NCBI RefSeq assembly: GCF_031432975.1
Contig: NZ_CP133838.1
Location: 4,588,001 to 4,652,000 of the forward strand
Length of the DNA stretch: 64,000 nucleotides
DNA from: Buttiauxella selenatireducens
GTDB lineage: Bacteria; Pseudomonadota; Gammaproteobacteria; Enterobacterales; Enterobacteriaceae
Reading direction: 5' to 3'
Of the stretch, positions 44,966-56,960 are shown one piece after another. How positions within the stretch are numbered: position 1 is the first letter of the stretch; the number at the start of each line of letters is the position of its first letter. The notes beneath the pieces are model-generated. The model was not told where the DNA came from. It ran no database searches and worked only from the letters and a program-made list of their open reading frames with translations. The position numbers were made by a program, and so were the translations under genes.

Positions 44966-44997
44966 TTGACAACCATGATATGTTATATGGTAACAAT
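44966..44997 (+). promoter_or_regulatory. Promoter of the SPFH-ATPase operon with an operator in its spacer
   Basis: A perfect -35 TTGACA (44966-44971) is followed by a 20-base spacer that is itself an interrupted dyad (ACCAT-N10-ATGGT), then AACAAT (44992-44997) as a poor -10. A long spacer filled by a dyad is the pattern of MerR-family metal-responsive promoters such as that of zntA. The inferred transcript would start only about 14 bases before the first ATG. Confidence 0.4.
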
Positions 44998-45017: not shown

Positions 45018-46982
45018 ATGCAGCCCTCTCAACCTTCTGAATCAGCGGAGCCTTCACCGCTAACCTCTCAGGCTCGTTACGCCCTCGCTCCCGCGCAGGC
45101 AATGCTTACCGCAAGATTAGTTTTTGGCTTAAGCGCCGTGATTTTCCTGATGATGGTGGTGGCGCTGATTGCCAGTATTTTCGAGCCATCTTCCCGCTGG
45201 CCAACGTTTTTAACCAGCAATGCCGCTGCCCTGATTTTGCTCGCGACCTCTTTATTTAATGCACAGCGAATTTGCCAGTGGCGGGCTGCGAAGTACTCGC
45301 CTCGGCTAAAACCTGAAGCGGAAGTCGAAGCCGAATTACCGCCGACGATTTACCAACGTCTTTGGGCGCTTATTCCCATCAACTTCAGCCGCATCAATGT
45401 GTTGCTCAAGAGCGATGGCGTTTGGCTTGGGTCAATGGCGCTGTTTACCCTGTTTGTCACGCAAGCGGGAGTATCCGCTAACTACCTTGCGCTCGATGAA
45501 GGCAACCTGCGTTGGGTGGCAGTTGGGATCCTTGCGGCAGCGATGTTTGCCACGTTAGTGGCTGAACGCCACCTGGCCGCCACCGCAGACGAAGCCTGGC
45601 CTGAAGCAAAATTGATTGCACCGCTGTTACGCCTGACTCTGGCGGTGCAATTTCTCTCTTTACCAGCGCTGATTTTCCCCACACCCACTATCCCATTGCT
45701 GGTCAATCTCCCTGCCATTCTGGTTATTCTGGTCGCGCTTGAATTCCTGCTGCGCGGCCTGTTTTCGCTGTTCACACCGCCAAATGAAGAAGGGTGCGAG
45801 CCCGCATTCCTCGCGCAGAGCCAACTGGCCGCGCAGCTTGTATGGCCTCCACGCCCGTTACTCTTTTTGCAGCATGAGTTACATCAACACTTCGGTATCG
45901 ATTTACGCCAGTTATGGGCTTTCACCGTTCTGAAACGCGCATTCTTACCCGTGCTGGCGTTGATGCTGCTTTGTGGTTGGCTGTTAACCGGGATGCAGCA
46001 AGTTTCTGCCACCCAGCGTGGGATTTATGAACGCTTTGGTAAGCCCGTAAAAGTGTTGTCATCCGGCCTGCATTACGGGCTACCGTGGCCGTTCGGACAA
46101 GTGATACTCACGGAAAATGGCCAGGTACACGAGTTAGCCGCAGGCGAAGAACCCGATAGTGCAACAGAGCCTTTAGCAAGCGCGGAAGGCGAGGCGCCGC
46201 AAAGTGCCGATCGCCTGTGGGATGCTATCCATAGTTTTGATAAAGCGCAGATTATTGCCAGCCAAAGCGGTAGCCAACAGAGTCTGCAAATCATTAATAG
46301 CGATGTGCGGTTTATGTGGCGCATTGGCATGAGCGACAACGCCGCACTGGCGGCGACCTATCACAGCACCAATCTCCAGGAATTGATTCGCAGCACCGCG
46401 AATCAGGTGCTGGTGCATCAGTTTTCCTCTCAGACGCTTGAGCAGCTATTGGGGGAGCAACGCAACGCCTTAGCCAACCAGATTAAGCAAGCGGTGCAGC
46501 AAAAACTTGATAGTCTGCATTCAGGCGTCGAACTGCTCTCAACCGTGGTCGAAGCCATTCATCCTCCGGCAGGCGCAGCTGACGCTTTCCATGGGGTGCA
46601 GGCGGCGCAAATTTCGGCTCAGGCGCTGATATCCCGCGAACGCGGACATGCCGCTGAACTGGCTGCCAGCGCCCAAACCACCGCCACTACACGCCAGAAT
46701 CAGGCGCAAATGAACGCCACCGATGTGACCAGCAAAGCACAGTCCACGGCGGTGCGTTTCGCCGCACAAAAACAGGCAGTGGCGCAGTCGGGGCAGGTGT
46801 TTGTCGATGAATTATGGTACAGCCAGCTACACCAGACACTCGGCCACAGCCCGTTGCTGATTATCGACCACCGCATTGGCGCAGGCTCACCACCGACTAT
46901 CGATCTGCGCGATTTCCCCTCATTAAATGAAGTAGCACGGCGCGACGCGCCTTCTAAACCGACACAGGAGTCCTCCCGTTGA
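45018..46982 (+). CDS. Polytopic SPFH/HflK-like membrane protein
   Basis: A 654-residue protein with an unusual layout. The first 330 residues hold about six or seven membrane segments; the remainder is an SPFH/band-7 domain of HflK type (TQRGIYERFGKPVKVLSSGLHYGLPWPF near 337, then QIINSDVRFMWRIG and a long Ala/Gln-rich coiled coil at about 515-600). Ordinary HflK has one membrane segment. It would make large membrane-bound rings with the two following SPFH proteins. No ribosome binding site is visible, consistent with a very short leader. The gene overlaps the next one. Function is not established. Confidence 0.88.
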   Translation: MQPSQPSESAEPSPLTSQARYALAPAQAMLTARLVFGLSAVIFLMMVVALIASIFEPSSRWPTFLTSNAAALILLATSLFNAQRICQWRAAKYSPRLKPEAEVEAELPPTIYQRLWALIPINFSRINVLLKSDGVWLGSMALFTLFVTQAGVSANYLALDEGNLRWVAVGILAAAMFATLVAERHLAATADEAWPEAKLIAPLLRLTLAVQFLSLPALIFPTPTIPLLVNLPAILVILVALEFLLRGLFSLFTPPNEEGCEPAFLAQSQLAAQLVWPPRPLLFLQHELHQHFGIDLRQLWAFTVLKRAFLPVLALMLLCGWLLTGMQQVSATQRGIYERFGKPVKVLSSGLHYGLPWPFGQVILTENGQVHELAAGEEPDSATEPLASAEGEAPQSADRLWDAIHSFDKAQIIASQSGSQQSLQIINSDVRFMWRIGMSDNAALAATYHSTNLQELIRSTANQVLVHQFSSQTLEQLLGEQRNALANQIKQAVQQKLDSLHSGVELLSTVVEAIHPPAGAADAFHGVQAAQISAQALISRERGHAAELAASAQTTATTRQNQAQMNATDVTSKAQSTAVRFAAQKQAVAQSGQVFVDELWYSQLHQTLGHSPLLIIDHRIGAGSPPTIDLRDFPSLNEVARRDAPSKPTQESSR

Positions 46983-47962
46983 GCCATTCACATCATAATG
47001 GTTGTGGTTGCCAACACAACCCACATTCTGCTTCGGACACTCATAAAAAGGGAGCATGGAAACGCATTGCGGGTGCGGGATTGCTGGTTGTTTTGCTGGT
47101 CGCGGCGGCAAGTCTTGTGCAGGTGCGCTCAGGGGAATCACTGATCATCACCCGCTTTGGCAATCCGGTGCGCGTGTTACTCGACCCTGGCCTTGCCTGG
47201 CGATTGCCCGCACCGTTTGAAATGTCGACCGCCGTGGATTTGCGTCTACGCACCACGTCGAGCGGCTTACAGGATGTTGGCACGCGCGATGGCCTGCGGA
47301 TTATCGTGCAGTCTTTTGCCGTCTGGCAGGTCGATAACACGCCGGAACATGTGCAGCGCTTTATGCGAGCGGTGCAAAACCAGCCGGACGAAGCCGCGCG
47401 GCAAATCCGTGCCTATTTAGGTTCAGCGCTGGAAACCACCGCCAGCGGATTTACCCTCTCGCAACTGGTGAATACCGACAGCCAGCACGTGCAACTCAAC
47501 CAGTTTGAATCCCATTTGCAGGCGCAAATCAGCCAGCCGCTGCTGGAAAGTTATGGGATTCGGCTGGTGCAAGTTGGCACCGAACGCCTGACGCTACCGG
47601 CGGTGACGCTCAACGCCACGGTCGATAGAATGCGTGCCGAGCGCGAAACCATTGCCACCGAACGCACCGCTGAAGGCAAACGCGCGGCAGCAGAAATCCG
47701 CTCAGCGGCAGAACGTGATGCACGTATTGTGGAAGCGCAGGCGCAGGTTCAGGCCGCTGACATCGAAGCGCAGTCTCAGGCACAGGCGGCAGAAATTTAT
47801 GGCAAAGCGTACGCCAGCTCGCCGCAGCTTTATCGCCTGTTACGCCAGCTTGATGCACTGAGTGGCGTGGTGAATTCCAGTACCCGTCTGGTATTACGCA
47901 CCGATGCTGCGCCGTTCCGGCTGCTGGTTGAAGGGCCGAAACTGGATAAAACTCATGAGTGA
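46979..47962 (+). CDS. SPFH/HflC-like protein with His/Cys-rich N-terminus
   Basis: A 327-residue SPFH protein. The first 22 residues contain six His and two Cys (His3, 5, 6, 13, 16, 22; Cys9, 11), a likely metal-binding tail. A membrane segment follows at about 30-48, then a band-7 domain (SGESLIITRFGNPVRVLLDPGLAWRLP) and a long helical region (RAERETIATERTAEGKRAAAEIRSAAERDA is typical HflC; about 218-250). The start is TTG, supported by AGGAG eight bases upstream and by overlap with the preceding stop (TTGA); no in-frame ATG exists before the band-7 domain. It may supply metal to the ATPase encoded downstream. Confidence 0.88.
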   Translation: MSHSHHNGCGCQHNPHSASDTHKKGAWKRIAGAGLLVVLLVAAASLVQVRSGESLIITRFGNPVRVLLDPGLAWRLPAPFEMSTAVDLRLRTTSSGLQDVGTRDGLRIIVQSFAVWQVDNTPEHVQRFMRAVQNQPDEAARQIRAYLGSALETTASGFTLSQLVNTDSQHVQLNQFESHLQAQISQPLLESYGIRLVQVGTERLTLPAVTLNATVDRMRAERETIATERTAEGKRAAAEIRSAAERDARIVEAQAQVQAADIEAQSQAQAAEIYGKAYASSPQLYRLLRQLDALSGVVNSSTRLVLRTDAAPFRLLVEGPKLDKTHE

Positions 47963-49007
47963 TATCCAGACCAAAAAGTCGGCTGGCCCGTGGACGCAGT
48001 CGATACGCCTCGCTTTTTATGCGCTGTACGGGCTGACGCTGCTGGCGGCTGCGTCGTGGTTGTTCTCTAACATTCGCCAAATACCCGCCGACAGCCGCGC
48101 GGTGGTGCTGCATTTTGGCGCGGAGCAGCGCGTGGCCGAGCCGGGTTTGTTGCTAACCTGGCCAAAGCCCATTGACGATGTGGTGATGGTGCCTGCTCCC
48201 GACCGCGTTATCGAACATCACGTTACGGCACTTCTGCGTTCGACCGACGCGCAGCATGCAGATGCTCGCGGCGACAGCAGCAGCGATGCGCTGGCCGGTT
48301 CAGGTTATCTGCTCACGGGTGATACGGCGGTGGTGCAACTGGATATCAGCGTGTTTTATCGCGTCATTTCGCCAATGGATTATGTGTTGCAGGGTGAACA
48401 TGTGATCCCGGCACTCGACCGTCTGGTTCAGCGCGCAGCCATTGCCGTGTGTGCATCAAGGGATCTGGATACGATTCTGGTTGCGCGCCCGGAAATGGTC
48501 AGCAGCGATTTGAATGTTGCCCAGCAGCGTGAACGCCTGCGGGCCGATGTGCAGCACAACATCGAACAGAACCTGCAACGCCTGACGCAATCGGGCAGTT
48601 CGCTGGGCATCACACTTGAGCGCGTAACGGTGCAATCCACGCTGCCTACTCCCACCGTCACCGCCTTCAATGCGGTGTTAACCGCCAGCCAGCAGGCATC
48701 GCAAGCTATTGCGACCGCAAATACCGATGCGTCTGTAATTCGACAGAAATCCACGCAGCTTGCGGATCAGCTACGCCAGACAGCACAAGCGCAGGCGCGA
48801 GAAAACGTGGCGAAAGCCCAGTCCGATACGGCGATGGTGAACCGGCTGGCCAGGAGTCCAAATGACCCAGATTTATTAGCGCGAGTGTACCGCGAACGCA
48901 TTGCGGCGATTCTCGCGCAGGCCGCATCCGTCATCACCGTCGCCCCGCAGGATGATGCGAATATGATCCTGCAAGCGGCCGGGCAAAAGGAACCTTCTAA
49001 ACCATGA
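47955..49007 (+). CDS. Third SPFH/HflC-HflK-like protein
   Basis: A 350-residue SPFH protein with one membrane segment near residues 20-40, a band-7 domain (SRAVVLHFGAEQRVAEPGLLLTWPKPID near 50) and a helical C-terminal half. The start MSDIQTKKS (ATG at 47955) overlaps the end of the preceding gene by eight bases (ATGAGTGA). A second overlap (ATGA) couples it to the ATPase gene. Three SPFH paralogues in one operon are unusual; HflK/HflC pairs are normally two and associate with FtsH, which is not encoded here. Confidence 0.88.
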   Translation: MSDIQTKKSAGPWTQSIRLAFYALYGLTLLAAASWLFSNIRQIPADSRAVVLHFGAEQRVAEPGLLLTWPKPIDDVVMVPAPDRVIEHHVTALLRSTDAQHADARGDSSSDALAGSGYLLTGDTAVVQLDISVFYRVISPMDYVLQGEHVIPALDRLVQRAAIAVCASRDLDTILVARPEMVSSDLNVAQQRERLRADVQHNIEQNLQRLTQSGSSLGITLERVTVQSTLPTPTVTAFNAVLTASQQASQAIATANTDASVIRQKSTQLADQLRQTAQAQARENVAKAQSDTAMVNRLARSPNDPDLLARVYRERIAAILAQAASVITVAPQDDANMILQAAGQKEPSKP

Positions 49008-50902
49008 GCACCCATTCTGTGAATCCCGGCGGTGCGCTGTCGCACCAAGAACAGCGGCAGGTAGCCCGCCAGCTCATCCTGGCGTTGACCGCCGGTGGCA
49101 CGCTCATTTTGGGTTTGCTGTGGCGAGTCCTGGCGCCCGATCAACTTGCCGTGGCCGATATCATATTGGGTAGCGCTTCGCTGATGGTCGCCGTCCCGGT
49201 ATTGCGCCACGCCTTTTACAGCCTGCGTTATCCAAGTTTGCACGGCATTACCGATCAACTGGTGGCGCTGGCTTTGATTGGCTCGTGGGCAACCGGAGAT
49301 TTGCTCACCGCTGCGTTGTTACCGCTGATTATGATCGTCGGCCATATCCTCGAAGAACGCAGCGTGATTGGCTCGCAAGAAGCCATTGAATCATTGAGCA
49401 AACTGACCCGCAGCCGGGCGCGACGCTTCGATGCAAACGGCAATCTGCATGAAGTCGATAACCATGAACTGGTCGCGGGCGATATTGTGGAAGTGCGTGC
49501 GGGTGACCGATTACCTGCCGACGGGCGCGTGCTGGACGGCCAGGCCAGCCTCGACACAGCCCCCATAACCGGGGAATCCGTACCGCAGGAAGTAAAAGCC
49601 GGGATGAATGTTTATGGCGGGGCGATAAATCTTGATGGGCGGTTGCGCATTGAAGTCACGCGCACCGGGGAAACCTCAACCCTTGGACGAGTTGTGGCAT
49701 TAATGCAAAGCGCCGAGCAGGCCAGCCCGCCAATCACCCGTTTACTGGAACGCCACGCGGCGCGATACCTGCTACTGGTGTTACTGATTGCGGCCAGTAC
49801 CTGGTTTTTAACGCAAAACACGCAGGCGATGTTAGCGGTGCTGGTTGCCGCCTGCCCGTGTGCGCTGGTGCTTTCCGCACCCGCAACCTCCATTGCCGGT
49901 CTGACCGTCGCTGCGCGTCACGGTATTTTGATTCGCGGTGCGGCATTCCTCGAAGAATTAGCCGAACTGAACGCGGTCATCATCGACAAAACCGGCACGC
50001 TTACACACGGCAAATTGCAACTGCATGCGCTGCTCCCACAAGCAGGCGAATCGCCAGAAGCACTCTCTGCGCTGGCGGCAAGCCTGGGCGCAACCAGTAA
50101 CCATCCCGTCAGTTGTGCGATGGTGAATATCGCGCCGCAAAACGCCTGGCCACATCTGGAAAATGTGCATGAACATCAGGGCCTGGGCGTGTCGGCAACC
50201 ACGGCGGCAGGCGAGGCATTTCTCGGCAGGCATGAACTCTTAAAAACCCAGGTTGTCGATTTACCCCAAGAGCCACAGCATGACGGGCCGATTGTTGGCC
50301 TGGTGCTGGCGGGCCGTTTCCGTGGCTGGATTTTACTGGCCGATAGCTTGCGTGACGAAGCCGCTAACGCCATGAAAGAATTGCGTGAGTTAGGGCTGAA
50401 CCAGCAGTTATTACTGACCGGTGACCGCCAGGCTGTAGCAGAACGCATCGCAAAAAACGTCGGCATCAACAACGTTATCGCCGGCGCGCTTCCCGCGGAT
50501 AAATTGCAGCAAGTCAGCGCGCAAATCGACAATGGCTTCCGGCCGATGGTGGTCGGCGATGGCATCAACGATTCACTGGCGCTAAAAGCGGGCGTCGTCG
50601 GCGTGGCGATGGGCGCAGGCGGCTCGGATATCGCTATGGCATCGGCAGATATCGTACTGATTGGCGATGATTTACGCCGTCTGGGAACCTGCGTGCGATT
50701 AAGCCGTCTGTGCCGACGCACATTGCAGATGAACGTGATGATTGGCCTGGGCTGGACGCTGGTGATTGTCGCCGCTGCGGCGTTTGGCTGGCTGGGTGCG
50801 TCCGGCGCCGTCATTGCCGCGATATTGCATAACCTGAGCACGCTGCTGGTATTGGGTAATGCCGGGCGATTGTTAAGGTTTGAAGAGAAGTTGAGCGACT
50901 AA
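49004..50902 (+). CDS. P1B-type heavy-metal-transporting ATPase
   Basis: A 632-residue metal-transport ATPase. Key motifs: ITGES (actuator domain, near 190), the membrane CPC metal site (Cys284-Pro285-Cys286, AACPCALVLSAP), the phosphorylated Asp328 in DKTGTLT, HP-like SNHPVS in the nucleotide domain, and GDGINDS. The CPC motif places it with Zn/Cd/Pb or Cu exporters, closest in style to ZntA. Unlike ZntA or CopA, it has no N-terminal metal-binding domain: only about 30 residues precede the first membrane segment. It is coupled (ATGA) to three SPFH genes. The metal and direction are not determined; export is usual for the family. Confidence 0.92.
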   Translation: MSTHSVNPGGALSHQEQRQVARQLILALTAGGTLILGLLWRVLAPDQLAVADIILGSASLMVAVPVLRHAFYSLRYPSLHGITDQLVALALIGSWATGDLLTAALLPLIMIVGHILEERSVIGSQEAIESLSKLTRSRARRFDANGNLHEVDNHELVAGDIVEVRAGDRLPADGRVLDGQASLDTAPITGESVPQEVKAGMNVYGGAINLDGRLRIEVTRTGETSTLGRVVALMQSAEQASPPITRLLERHAARYLLLVLLIAASTWFLTQNTQAMLAVLVAACPCALVLSAPATSIAGLTVAARHGILIRGAAFLEELAELNAVIIDKTGTLTHGKLQLHALLPQAGESPEALSALAASLGATSNHPVSCAMVNIAPQNAWPHLENVHEHQGLGVSATTAAGEAFLGRHELLKTQVVDLPQEPQHDGPIVGLVLAGRFRGWILLADSLRDEAANAMKELRELGLNQQLLLTGDRQAVAERIAKNVGINNVIAGALPADKLQQVSAQIDNGFRPMVVGDGINDSLALKAGVVGVAMGAGGSDIAMASADIVLIGDDLRRLGTCVRLSRLCRRTLQMNVMIGLGWTLVIVAAAAFGWLGASGAVIAAILHNLSTLLVLGNAGRLLRFEEKLSD

Positions 50903-50916
50903 GTCATTCATCAAAA

Positions 50917-50946
50917 AAGGCCACCAAATAATAGGTGGCCTTAAAC
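50917..50946 (-). terminator. Terminator of the 67-residue gene, also ends the ATPase operon
   Basis: AAGGCCACC and GGTGGCCTT form a 9-bp stem. On the minus strand it is followed by TTTTTTGATG, a true terminator for the gene at 50989-51192. On the plus strand there is no U-run, but the hairpin directly follows the ATPase gene. Confidence 0.8.
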
Positions 50947-54234: not shown

Positions 54235-55191
54235 TTAAATATTGAAGTTGAGAATGACCGTTTCTTTGCCTGCATTACTGAAAGACAAGGGGAAAAGGCT
54301 TTTTCCCTCTATGTGGCGGAGCAGGTCCCGTTTCAAACGTCTTAATGATATTTCCTTAGAAATCCGTCCGTTAAGGTAAAAATCAAGCGATTCTTTACGG
54401 CAAATTGCTCGCGCCGCACCTTCGATACCAGATTCATGCAGCATTTCTGCGCGATCGCGGCTGATTCCATTGATGAGGAAGACGAGATCATCGATTATTG
54501 CTGTAAGCATTTTGATTGCGGTGACACTATTTCCTACTGAAGCGTGCTTCCAGATAGGTTCATGGTGTGCAACCCTATTTCGCAACTCTTTGATAGGTAG
54601 CAATTTATTATGAATATCGCCATGTCGACGTTCTGAAGGCAATAAATTGGGAAAAACCATCGGTTCTAAATGTGGCCATAATCGGTCAGATGTATTGAGA
54701 TCATGATAGTTTCTCTCAAACATGCCAACCCAAAAACCGAACATCAATTCAGCAACAATTGCATCTGCATGTTGAGGCTTATGGCCACTAGTCAACTTTT
54801 CTTTTGCTTGTTTCAGCATGCTTTCATGGCGTGATGTCCACACCTTTTTGTTCTTACGACTTCCGCTACTTATGTTTTTTCGATAGAAATTGTTTGATAA
54901 ATGAGGATATTGAGTCATGAAGGAGTTAAAATAATCATGCCCAGCCAGCTTCGTTAAAGGATCAAACCAAGCAGGGTTGTTAAAGTGAGCAGAAGCTGCA
55001 TTATGAATACCGTTTCTCAAGGTTACTTCAAGGCATTGCAAAAGAGGGAAAAGTGCAGCGCCTACGCGTTTGTTCCAAACATAGGCTCCGATGCACTCTC
55101 CAAGAGTGGCATTGTTTGTTAGAGCAATGTATGTCTTAAGTCGAGCCTTAGATACGTAGGCTTCAATCGCGAGATTGTTGTGTAGTTGCAA
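54235..55191 (-). CDS. Abi-family (AbiD/AbiF, HEPN) protein
   Basis: A 318-residue protein of the Abi_2 (AbiD/AbiF) family, implicated in abortive phage infection and thought to be HEPN ribonucleases. The Rx4H motif is clear in KELRNRVAHHEP (Arg204, His209), and an N-terminal helix has TLRNGIHNAAS. The start is TTG at 55191, with GAGGG four to five bases upstream; no ATG occurs before the conserved region. The base composition is more AT-rich than its neighbours, suggesting transfer. It is flanked by an IS110-family element, with a strong 16-bp hairpin between them. Function as defence is inferred from the family. Confidence 0.82.
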   Translation of the reverse strand: MQLHNNLAIEAYVSKARLKTYIALTNNATLGECIGAYVWNKRVGAALFPLLQCLEVTLRNGIHNAASAHFNNPAWFDPLTKLAGHDYFNSFMTQYPHLSNNFYRKNISSGSRKNKKVWTSRHESMLKQAKEKLTSGHKPQHADAIVAELMFGFWVGMFERNYHDLNTSDRLWPHLEPMVFPNLLPSERRHGDIHNKLLPIKELRNRVAHHEPIWKHASVGNSVTAIKMLTAIIDDLVFLINGISRDRAEMLHESGIEGAARAICRKESLDFYLNGRISKEISLRRLKRDLLRHIEGKSLFPLSFSNAGKETVILNFNI

Positions 55192-55344: not shown

Positions 55345-56960
55345 GTGACCAGCATCTTCACCAGCAGTTGGTGCATTTGTATGAAGGTCCGCTTCACGCC
55401 CTGAGACATTCGACAAGCTTTTTACGACCCTAGTAAGGGCGATTTTCGCTCTTCAAGCGCCAGTAAATATTTCGCTTCGTCATAACGGGTTCTGGTCTTC
55501 CAGCAGCGGTAAATAACCCTTATCCATTTGAATGCCAGAGCCCGGATCGCGGACTGATGAGATTTTCCCTTTTCTCGCTGCCCCTGATAATACCGTCTGG
55601 CCCAGTATGATGAGTTTACCGTCTTCGCAGTCCATTCCACGAATGTCTGTCGGACGAACTTCGCACACTGCCAACGCCAGTGCACCCAGGATTTTTGGCC
55701 GCTTCGCTCGGTTACTGGCGCGATGCCAGCATAGTTTTGTATTTCTTCTGCGCTGTTGAAGCGGTTGCGGTTATCACCCAATGCTGCAAGCATTCGCGGG
55801 CCCATACACGGTCCCATGCCCGGCAGTGATTTGAACAGTTCAGCATCTGGCAATTTGTCAAAATGCGTTTCGATTCGTTCGTCATAGGTTTTGATGATTT
55901 CACTCACGACTTTAATTTGTGCCGCCAGTGCTGTAGCCATCAAAGCATTAGCTTCTATAACTACTGGGTCTGTAGTCAATGGAATCGAACTCTCAATGCT
56001 CGCAACACGCTGCTCGGTAAGGGATCTTGCACGACCACCTTTGGTATTCAGAAAGTTACGGATCGTGTCGCGCCTGGCGCGTTTCAGTTGCTGCAGACTG
56101 GGCCACCGTATAATCAGTTCGCACAACAGTAAACTCCCCCTATGTGAGAACCATTCCAGAGGCTGAGGATAATACTGCTTCAATGTGTTGATAAGGCGGT
56201 TCACGAAGCGGCGTTTGTCTTCAACCAACTGGCGACGCTGTTCAACTAACTGCTGGAGCAACCTGATATCTGCATTGTCAGGCTCGATGGCCTTTATCTT
56301 TTGGGGGTAACGTAGCATTAGCTCTAATGCTAACTCAGCATCCTGGGGATCATCCTTCGCACCACTTGGCCAGAAGGTCTGCCGATAGCGGGCCAGTGAC
56401 AACGAGTGCACAGGAAAAACAGTGACAAATGGGTACTTCTGTAGAGCATACACCACCGGGCCTTTCTTCAGCTCAAGGGCTATAGCGATCCTGCCTTTCA
56501 CCTTTTGGTACAATTCGTTGAGCCAGATATCAAGCGCTTCCGGGGTATGTTCAACCACATGGAATATACGTTCGCCGTTTTTAAACTGAACGCAGACATC
56601 ATGCTTTTTATCTGCCCAATCCAGACCAACATGAGCAGCAAACTTATCTATCGCAGTCATCACCAACTCCTTTTTATCGGGGATTGGTATGCATTCCACG
56701 TTCTTCGAAAGAAATATAGTCAGCAGTTTTCTGCATGCCCTGAGTATTCGTTAGCGAACGTGGAGCACTTACTGGCTCGAAAGCAAAGCGGCAATCATCA
56801 AATCACATGATTCTGGCACAATATTCGTAACCAGTAAGCGCATACCCTGAATCACTTAAAAGTGTAACTCTCAGGGTTCGAATGACTATATCTGGCACAG
56901 AGAGGCCTGTCAGATTATTTTTAGCTCTGCGTTGTGATAGTGCCAGTTCGAGTTTGTGCG
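55345..56960 (-). mobile_element. IS110-family insertion sequence (limits approximate)
   Basis: A DEDD transposase gene with a non-coding region upstream, as in IS110 elements. These lack terminal inverted repeats and usually make no target duplication, so the ends cannot be read directly. GCCCTGAGACATTCG (55398-55412) 3' of the gene resembles GCCCTGAGTATTCG (56737-56750) 5' of it, a direct repeat that may be linked to the ends. Confidence 0.7.
55422..56660 (-). CDS. IS110-family transposase
   Basis: A 412-residue DEDD recombinase. The N-terminal RuvC-like domain has D14 (HVGLDWADKKHD), an acidic IALELKKG strand and the DD pair in GAKDDPQDAEL; the C-terminal Transposase_20 domain has LPGMGPCMGPRMLAALG and the region YAGIAPVTERSGQK with the catalytic Ser. 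The start MTAIDKFAAHV is chosen at the family start; the frame could extend 13 codons. It appears intact. IS110 enzymes use a bridge RNA encoded in the element's non-coding end to choose target and donor. Confidence 0.93.
   Translation of the reverse strand: MTAIDKFAAHVGLDWADKKHDVCVQFKNGERIFHVVEHTPEALDIWLNELYQKVKGRIAIALELKKGPVVYALQKYPFVTVFPVHSLSLARYRQTFWPSGAKDDPQDAELALELMLRYPQKIKAIEPDNADIRLLQQLVEQRRQLVEDKRRFVNRLINTLKQYYPQPLEWFSHRGSLLLCELIIRWPSLQQLKRARRDTIRNFLNTKGGRARSLTEQRVASIESSIPLTTDPVVIEANALMATALAAQIKVVSEIIKTYDERIETHFDKLPDAELFKSLPGMGPCMGPRMLAALGDNRNRFNSAEEIQNYAGIAPVTERSGQKSWVHWRWQCAKFVRQTFVEWTAKTVNSSYWARRYYQGQREKGKSHQSAIRALAFKWIRVIYRCWKTRTRYDEAKYLLALEERKSPLLGS

Follow-up and report, generated by a model that had tools for sequence, protein, structure and literature searches.

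The bacterial proteins HflK and HflC, which share a topology with a cytoplasmic N-terminus and a periplasmic SPFH domain, form mixed cages, and the P-type ATPase HmtA of Pseudomonas aeruginosa is a metal pump, for which Lewinson 2009 is the primary paper on zinc and copper import. The present analysis concerns an operon with likenesses to both, located in a 64-kb stretch of the Buttiauxella selenatireducens genome (hereafter the window, with positions numbered from its first letter) and composed of four genes, of which A, B and C encode SPFH proteins and D encodes an HmtA-like P1B ATPase. HmtA (PA2435) is described as an importer of zinc and copper that takes neither silver nor cadmium (PMC8456098), and PA2439 (HflK family), PA2438 (HflC), PA2437 (HflC family) and PA2435 are up 9.0-, 10.6-, 14.4- and 5.6-fold, respectively, when znuA is mutated, and the Zur site given is weak (E 0.11; PMC4542158). 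The PA2435, PA2438 and PA2439 proteins are raised on zinc depletion, some of them non-significantly (PMC11761036), HmtA is raised under calprotectin (PMC8557868), Zur together with zinc shifts the PA2439 promoter in an electrophoretic mobility shift assay (PMC8531726), and PA2437-PA2439 are also named in PMC9431628.

Our analysis suggests that the Buttiauxella operon is a Zur-controlled zinc-acquisition cassette of the HmtA type equipped with its own SPFH scaffold, a reading towards which we lean, if only somewhat. Since the set looks switched on when zinc runs out, the pump probably imports zinc; the regulation and the correspondence with the hmtA cluster together point to metal acquisition in zinc shortage, and the obligate company of the three SPFH proteins with D, combined with the cages formed by HflK and HflC, suggests that the pump has a scaffold or cage of its own.

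Composition and conservation of the cassette

All four genes lie on the plus strand, their open reading frames (ORFs) are intact in the window, and successive genes overlap by 4 (A/B), 8 (B/C) and 4 (C/D) bases, in agreement with an earlier sequence-only reading of this region. Gene A (45018-46982, 654 residues) encodes an HflK-like protein, in whose N-terminal part seven predicted membrane segments precede the SPFH domain. Gene B (46979-47962, 327 residues, TTG start) encodes an HflC-like protein with a histidine-rich N-terminal tail, one membrane segment and an SPFH domain, and gene C (47955-49007, 350 residues counted from the ATG in ATGAGTGA) an HflK-like protein with one membrane segment and an SPFH domain. 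Gene D (49004-50902, 632 residues) encodes the pump. The same reading had counted three SPFH proteins and credited A with an additional membrane region of about 330 residues, and both statements hold: the Pfam Band_7/SPFH family (PF01145) is matched by A, B and C with 88.9, 101.3 and 64.9 bits, respectively (cut-off 23.6), and the hydropathy peaks ahead of the SPFH domain number seven in A and one each in B and C. Read by eye with the positive-inside rule, the sequences suggest that the N-termini are cytoplasmic and the SPFH domains periplasmic, as in HflK and HflC. At E <= 0.001, the only Pfam families found in A-D are Band_7, E1-E2_ATPase and Hydrolase.

A plain copy of HflK and HflC was considered and rejected, because the proteins score under the equivalog cut-offs (HflK, TIGR01933, cut-off 159.4: A 71.9, C 92.5; HflC, TIGR01932, cut-off 134.4: B 96.6) and the canonical pair resides elsewhere in the genome: the single 5.2-Mb contig also has canonical-looking hflC and hflK genes about 25 kb past the window end. 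The host additionally carries a QmcA-like SPFH gene, which lies about 2.4 kb from a CopA-like P1B ATPase gene (G000:C1:4038139-4042657; L001, L128), so that SPFH and metal-pump genes are neighbours at this place too. Comparison with Buttiauxella relatives (L035, L037 and L038) revealed that all four genes vary mainly at synonymous sites, with 225 synonymous and 49 non-synonymous codon changes in D relative to L035; the open frames and this purifying selection led us to reject a pseudogene reading. A role in anti-phage defence was rejected as well, since PADLOC families are absent from A-D.

The set described by the sequence-only reading is no chance arrangement and recurs in other genomes. A scan of one genome per species with the B alignment yielded at least 257 relatives, of which the best 80 were kept, and 7 plasmid loci chosen by A were added, so that what the resulting 87 loci test is whether the remaining genes of the set are there. 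A, B, C and D follow one another in this order on a single strand in 87 of 87 loci (Enterobacteriaceae, Pseudomonas, Marinomonas, Rhizobium and Burkholderiaceae), 84 of them clean and 3 with one gene split (B in L036, C in L085, A in L099); the B gene of L036, from Buttiauxella agrestis ATCC 33320, is broken by stop codons (L036:9968-10981), which may reflect either a pseudogene or a sequencing error. The 4-base start/stop overlap is the commonest junction (A-B 50/85, B-C 74/85, C-D 74/86). Among 398 genomes of the phylum, the profiles of B (E <= 1e-60) and D (E <= 1e-150) match an identical set of 11, on the same contigs and a few kb apart; here scoring was confined to the top 3 to 5 candidates of each genome, and the counts cover matches passing these thresholds. 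Pairwise correlations of A, B, C and D distances range from 0.88 to 0.98 over 22 thinned loci, a result that vertical descent alone would yield too.

The occurrence of the cassette is patchy, with 11 of 398 genomes (4 of 212 genera) in the phylum and 13 of 25 in one Pseudomonas genus. The first 324 residues of A were detected in 1 of 369 genomes of the class, namely its own, and an orthologue of C is present in 10 of 10 congeners (86-91% identity); the 49 genomes of the same family outside Buttiauxella gave only weak matches to C (best 31% identity, E 5e-12), as expected of HflK paralogues. The GC content of the four genes is 57.4%, versus 52.1% for the window. A tblastn search of 72,556 plasmid records with A returned 10 of them and B returned the same 10, of which 7 were retrieved. 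One of these, L031, is the Klebsiella aerogenes conjugative plasmid pYD-K10_1, in which the cassette lies near a Tn3-family transposase and encodes proteins that are no particularly close relatives of the Buttiauxella ones. The cassette is a conserved unit and looks like a portable kit and, because it is found on plasmids, one of them conjugative, the set may be a portable means of growth under zinc limitation.

The pump and the conserved histidines

D combines the E1-E2 ATPase and HAD hydrolase families of Pfam and is assigned to the heavy-metal P-type ATPases (NCBIfam TIGR01525, 514.6 versus a cut-off of 346.25 bits); it passes the cadmium-family model TIGR01512 (474.1 versus 313.5 bits) and falls under the cut-off of the CopA-type TIGR01511 (354.6 versus 397 bits). 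The CPC motif (residues 284-286) is identical in 88 of 88 aligned sequences and, together with DKTGT (328-332), is invariant in a 13-sequence alignment, so the assignment of D to the P1B ATPases by the sequence-only reading stands. Pfam reveals no HMA domain in the D protein of the window, and an N-terminal CxxC is absent from four of four D proteins compared. In transmembrane segments 5 and 6, where a Lys and a DxG motif, respectively, define the ZntA-type P1B-2 class, D exhibits T585 and H609-N610 instead, as judged against the ZntA- and CadA-like pumps of four genomes and the zinc ATPase of known structure, 4umv; the YN and MxxSS motifs of the CopA type are absent too. W584, T585, H609, N610 and T613, the last three being part of HNLST at 609-613, are each conserved in 87 of 88 sequences, with one gap, and at the positions of D's W-T and HNxST the ZntA/CadA-like and CopA-like pumps of the compared genomes show L/I-K or Y-N and DxGA or MxxSS. 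The literature search turned up no mention of an HNxST motif among the matches listed. A 15-sequence tree places D in a clade of its own (support 1.0) on a long branch, which adjoins the ZntA/CadA group (0.976). Membership of D in the ZntA or CopA group was therefore rejected, as the motifs differ and the clade is separate; the host genome has separate ZntA-like and CopA-like pumps.

A histidine-rich N-terminus is a general feature of B, whose initial 45 residues include 5 to 20 His in 84 of 86 loci (the residue counts given here omit the three split genes named above) and 6 His in the tail of the window's B. The count becomes 85 of 86 once the start of B in L090 is corrected; this exception is a start-site miscall, because the histidine-rich stretch sits just upstream in the reading frame. 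The sole real exception is the Klebsiella plasmid locus L031, in which the tail of B has 1 His and that of D has 5. Tails of D with at least 5 His occur also in 5 loci that retain the tail of B, the D proteins of 3 further genomes have 7 to 9 His, and a CadA-like pump of the Pseudomonas genome G833 possesses a histidine-rich N-terminus and no CxxC; because of these, the tail swap in L031 counts as one case and a CxxC-less pump is not unique to the set. The tail of B is predicted to be cytoplasmic. The tail, the absence of HMA from the Pfam matches of D and the upstream Zur-like site described below had been overlooked by the sequence-only reading.

Past residue 45, B has no column with a His majority, and C has three, at positions 53, 149 and 278 (54, 83 and 68 sequences, respectively; H149 in 83 of 87). 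In A, five histidines are nearly invariant (residues 371, 405, 467, 515 and 525, in 89, 90, 88, 90 and 90 of 90 sequences) and lie in the predicted periplasmic domain. Judged by eye, A residues 371, 515 and 525 are matched in the HflK of the host by Arg, Arg and Asp, respectively. H352 of A (87 of 90) was excluded from the five because canonical HflC appears, again by eye, to have a His at a like place.

The Zur-like site and the hmtA cluster

A Zur-like palindrome, TGTTATATGGTAACA, is found at 44981-44995 (no strand assigned), 37 bp ahead of the start of A, and matches the pattern TGTTATANNRTAACA exactly. Sites were scored by the number of matches out of 15 to TGTTATAWTATAACA, which was taken as the Zur core and may not fit groups outside Pseudomonas and Enterobacteriaceae; the site in the window scores 13. 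Within 250 bp ahead of A, a score of at least 11 is reached in 73 of 87 regions, versus 5.6% of shuffles, and within 150 bp in 72 of 87. In the shorter range, the Enterobacteriaceae sites (Buttiauxella 6 of 6, other non-plasmid loci 2 of 2) score 13 or 14, and 64 of 71 Pseudomonas regions reach at least 11, versus 3.6% of shuffles, the best of 71 controls taken inside gene A scoring 9; these counts come from related loci, which are not independent. A scan of the host genome with one mismatch allowed gave 11 matches at 8 sites, versus 5 for a control pattern. Among the 8 are the gap between znuA and znuC, the cassette operon and another transporter, which has an ABC-3 permease. These sequence matches make Zur a candidate regulator of the operon. 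The genes of the other transporter encode an ABC ATPase and a permease of the ABC-3 family, and an exact match to the pattern precedes them (L132:1501-3015; G000:C1 ~1001289-1001303); in addition to znu, they provide a further transporter of the zinc or manganese type.

The correspondence with P. aeruginosa was examined in the genome G833, which looks like P. aeruginosa or P. paraeruginosa (its azurin is identical to PDB 1azu in 125 of 128 residues) and which we take to be P. paraeruginosa PA7. Its locus L150 comprises A, B, C, an ORF of 152 residues with no Pfam match, D and a DUF4946 gene, i.e. the order expected from PA2439 to PA2434, and its D is 71% identical to that of the window over 622 residues. 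By gene order, A, B, C and D are thus the counterparts of PA2439, PA2438, PA2437 and PA2435, respectively, and the window has the gene set and order of the HmtA system, the latter as given in PMC4542158.

A hairpin just past D (50917-50942, no strand assigned) was scored as terminator-like on the minus strand by consensus match only, in a scan that found 18 such sites versus 7.9 expected in shuffles, and the promoter scan yielded nothing at the Zur-like site. In the window, the cassette is flanked by msrA and glutathione peroxidase genes, and further downstream lie ORFs (54235-55191 and 55422-56699) that by eye resemble an Abi-type protein and an IS110-type transposase. Elsewhere the flanks vary by lineage, e.g. 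fadL in L040, cbl in L072, sugar or sensor genes in Rhizobium and transposases in Burkholderia, with no common function among the flanking genes beyond lineage; in the Paraburkholderia locus L033, the cassette is preceded at a distance of 4 to 8 kb by genes for a zinc ABC transporter and for a GTP-binding protein, a neighbourhood that fits zinc acquisition. Downstream of D and on the same strand, 60 of 87 loci have a cyclopropane fatty acid synthase gene (CfaB model; one Pseudomonas representative scanned, L062:13941-15179), 18 of 87 a member of the MbnB/TglH/ChrH family (PF05114) and 17 of 87 a DUF2063 gene (one representative each scanned, L088:13890-15164 and L087:6754-8355, plus related Pseudomonas loci), an arrangement like that of bufferin-type clusters.

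Proposed function and comparison with known systems

According to the reading that we favour, Zur would leave the site at 44981-44995 when zinc is scarce, allowing the operon to be transcribed, and D would then move zinc, perhaps copper too, from the periplasm to the cytoplasm. The three different SPFH proteins would be anchored in the inner membrane, expose their SPFH domains to the periplasm and together may build a mixed ring or cage in which D is held or enclosed. The histidine-rich tail of B (in one locus, that of D) would be located where the pump opens to the cytoplasm and could stand in for the metal-binding domain missing from D. The gene set with its conservation, the histidine-rich tail, the motifs and the Zur-like site are observed; import in Buttiauxella, the topology, the SPFH ring and its contact with D are inferred. 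We also considered a bolder version, in which the cage is itself part of the transport path: the five histidines of A would collect periplasmic zinc in a chamber of A, B and C, from which it would pass to D at the chamber floor and on to the tail of B inside the cell. This version is speculative and we doubt it; if true, an SPFH ring would here for the first time serve a metal pump as its antechamber, and import by a P1B ATPase would have an explanation.

Several observations weigh against the zinc-acquisition reading. P1B ATPases are mostly exporters, the ring and its contact with D are suppositions, and the orthology of D to PA2435 is deduced from gene order, with G833 standing in for the PA2435 sequence. 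The consensus Zur site occurs in 0 of the 8 loci outside Pseudomonas and the non-plasmid Enterobacteriaceae (Rhizobium 4, Burkholderiaceae 2, Marinomonas 1, Klebsiella plasmid 1), the site in L150 appears weak by eye, and 5 of the 8 sites in the host genome have no evident zinc link, in a scan where the control pattern attained 5 matches versus 11. Copper neighbours are found as well, PCu(A)C in L033 and the bufferin-type genes in 18 loci. In the literature, hmtA mRNA has been reported as constantly low and unrepressed by zinc, with copper suggested instead (PMC8531726), and a review calls hmtA the exception to Zur binding and states that import by HmtA needs confirmation (PMC10393844).

D might act outward in a zinc-starvation system, loading periplasmic enzymes or expelling wrong metals (Co, Cu, Ni) that enter through less selective uptake, with the SPFH proteins still as a scaffold: it is a P1B ATPase by sequence, from a family of exporters, groups with the ZntA/CadA side (0.976), passes TIGR01512 (474.1 versus 313.5 bits), and import by HmtA is regarded as unconfirmed (PMC10393844). 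We nevertheless consider outward transport unlikely, as D lacks the Lys of transmembrane segment 5 and the Asp of segment 6 seen in the aligned ZntA/CadA-type pumps, and overexpression of HmtA reportedly leads to hypersensitivity and metal accumulation (PMC10393844). Much less credible is the related proposal of the sequence-only reading, a cage that gathers or guards an export pump for metal resistance. The P1B motifs of D and the precedent of P1B exporters in scaffolded membrane platforms, i.e. PacL1 and CtpC (PMC9374683, PMC13043812), speak for it, but the Zur-like palindrome upstream, the induction of the matching P. aeruginosa cluster by zinc depletion (PMC4542158, PMC11761036), the reports of HmtA as an importer (PMC8456098, PMC10393844) and the presence of separate ZntA-like and CopA-like pumps in the host do not agree with it, and we regard export for resistance as very improbable. 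By gene order, the operon corresponds instead to the hmtA cluster of P. aeruginosa, which has been described as a Zur-linked import system for zinc and copper in zinc starvation (PMC4542158, PMC11761036, PMC8531726, PMC8456098, PMC10393844). The scaffold part of that proposal survives, as the natural reading of three SPFH proteins travelling with D.

Or perhaps the three SPFH proteins are no scaffold of the pump at all? Zur regulons often contain paralogues that stand in for other proteins, and A, B and C could replace or modify HflK and HflC in zinc starvation and act on the zinc protease FtsH, while D feeds zinc separately. The resemblance of B to HflC and of C to HflK would fit this, and HflC and HflK have been pointed to as interactors of the zinc protease HflB (PMC11761036). 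Yet the three proteins stay below the HflK/HflC equivalog cut-offs, the host retains its own hflK-hflC pair, and the trio occurs without D in 0 of 87 loci (chosen for A or B) and B without D in 0 of 398 genomes; we thus judge this role, too, to be unlikely.

If the zinc-acquisition reading is right, earlier work on a P-type ATPase whose reported import activity is still questioned (PMC10393844) left out three proteins on which it obligately depends for company, and experiments with the complete set could address the direction of transport directly. The bacterial SPFH cages would then have a client besides FtsH, and there would be a case in which the metal-binding domain has moved from the pump to the scaffold. 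The sequence-only reading knew of no described function for this set, which holds only in part: descriptions exist of the pump and of how the cluster is regulated, and the role of the three SPFH proteins, the SPFH set as an inseparable part, the tail of B and the conserved histidines appear undescribed within the literature searched, where open-access searches for HflK or SPFH proteins together with HmtA or a P-type ATPase came back empty and at least four papers, among the matches listed, name PA2437-PA2439.

The operon may be compared with four known systems. With HflK/HflC and FtsH it shares the SPFH domain, one membrane segment at the N-terminus of B and of C, and similarity across the C-terminal half of HflC/HflK; in contrast, it has three such proteins instead of two, A with six extra membrane segments, and the partner gene encodes a metal pump, not FtsH. 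Like ZntA (P1B-2) and CopA (P1B-1), D possesses the P-type ATPase core and the CPC motif, but W584-T585 replaces the L-K of ZntA or the Y-N of CopA, HNxST replaces DxGA or MxxSS, and no HMA domain was found. In the literature, the closest idea is that of the mycobacterial PacL1/CtpC platforms, where the gene of a P1B ATPase accompanies that of a membrane scaffold with its own metal-binding tail, which keeps the pump in membrane foci; however, PacL is small and not an SPFH protein, the foci are flotillin-independent and the pumps export (PMC9374683, PMC13043812). The PacL-type DUF1490 scaffold is not among the Pfam matches of A-D at E <= 0.001. The HmtA cluster PA2434-PA2439 differs from the window in having the PA2436-like gene between C and D and the DUF4946 gene after D, and the Zur-like site is stronger in the window; the two share the order HflK-like, HflC-like, SPFH and P-type ATPase, and a link to Zur, which is putative in the window, and induction by zinc depletion, as reported for P. 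aeruginosa, would be further likenesses.

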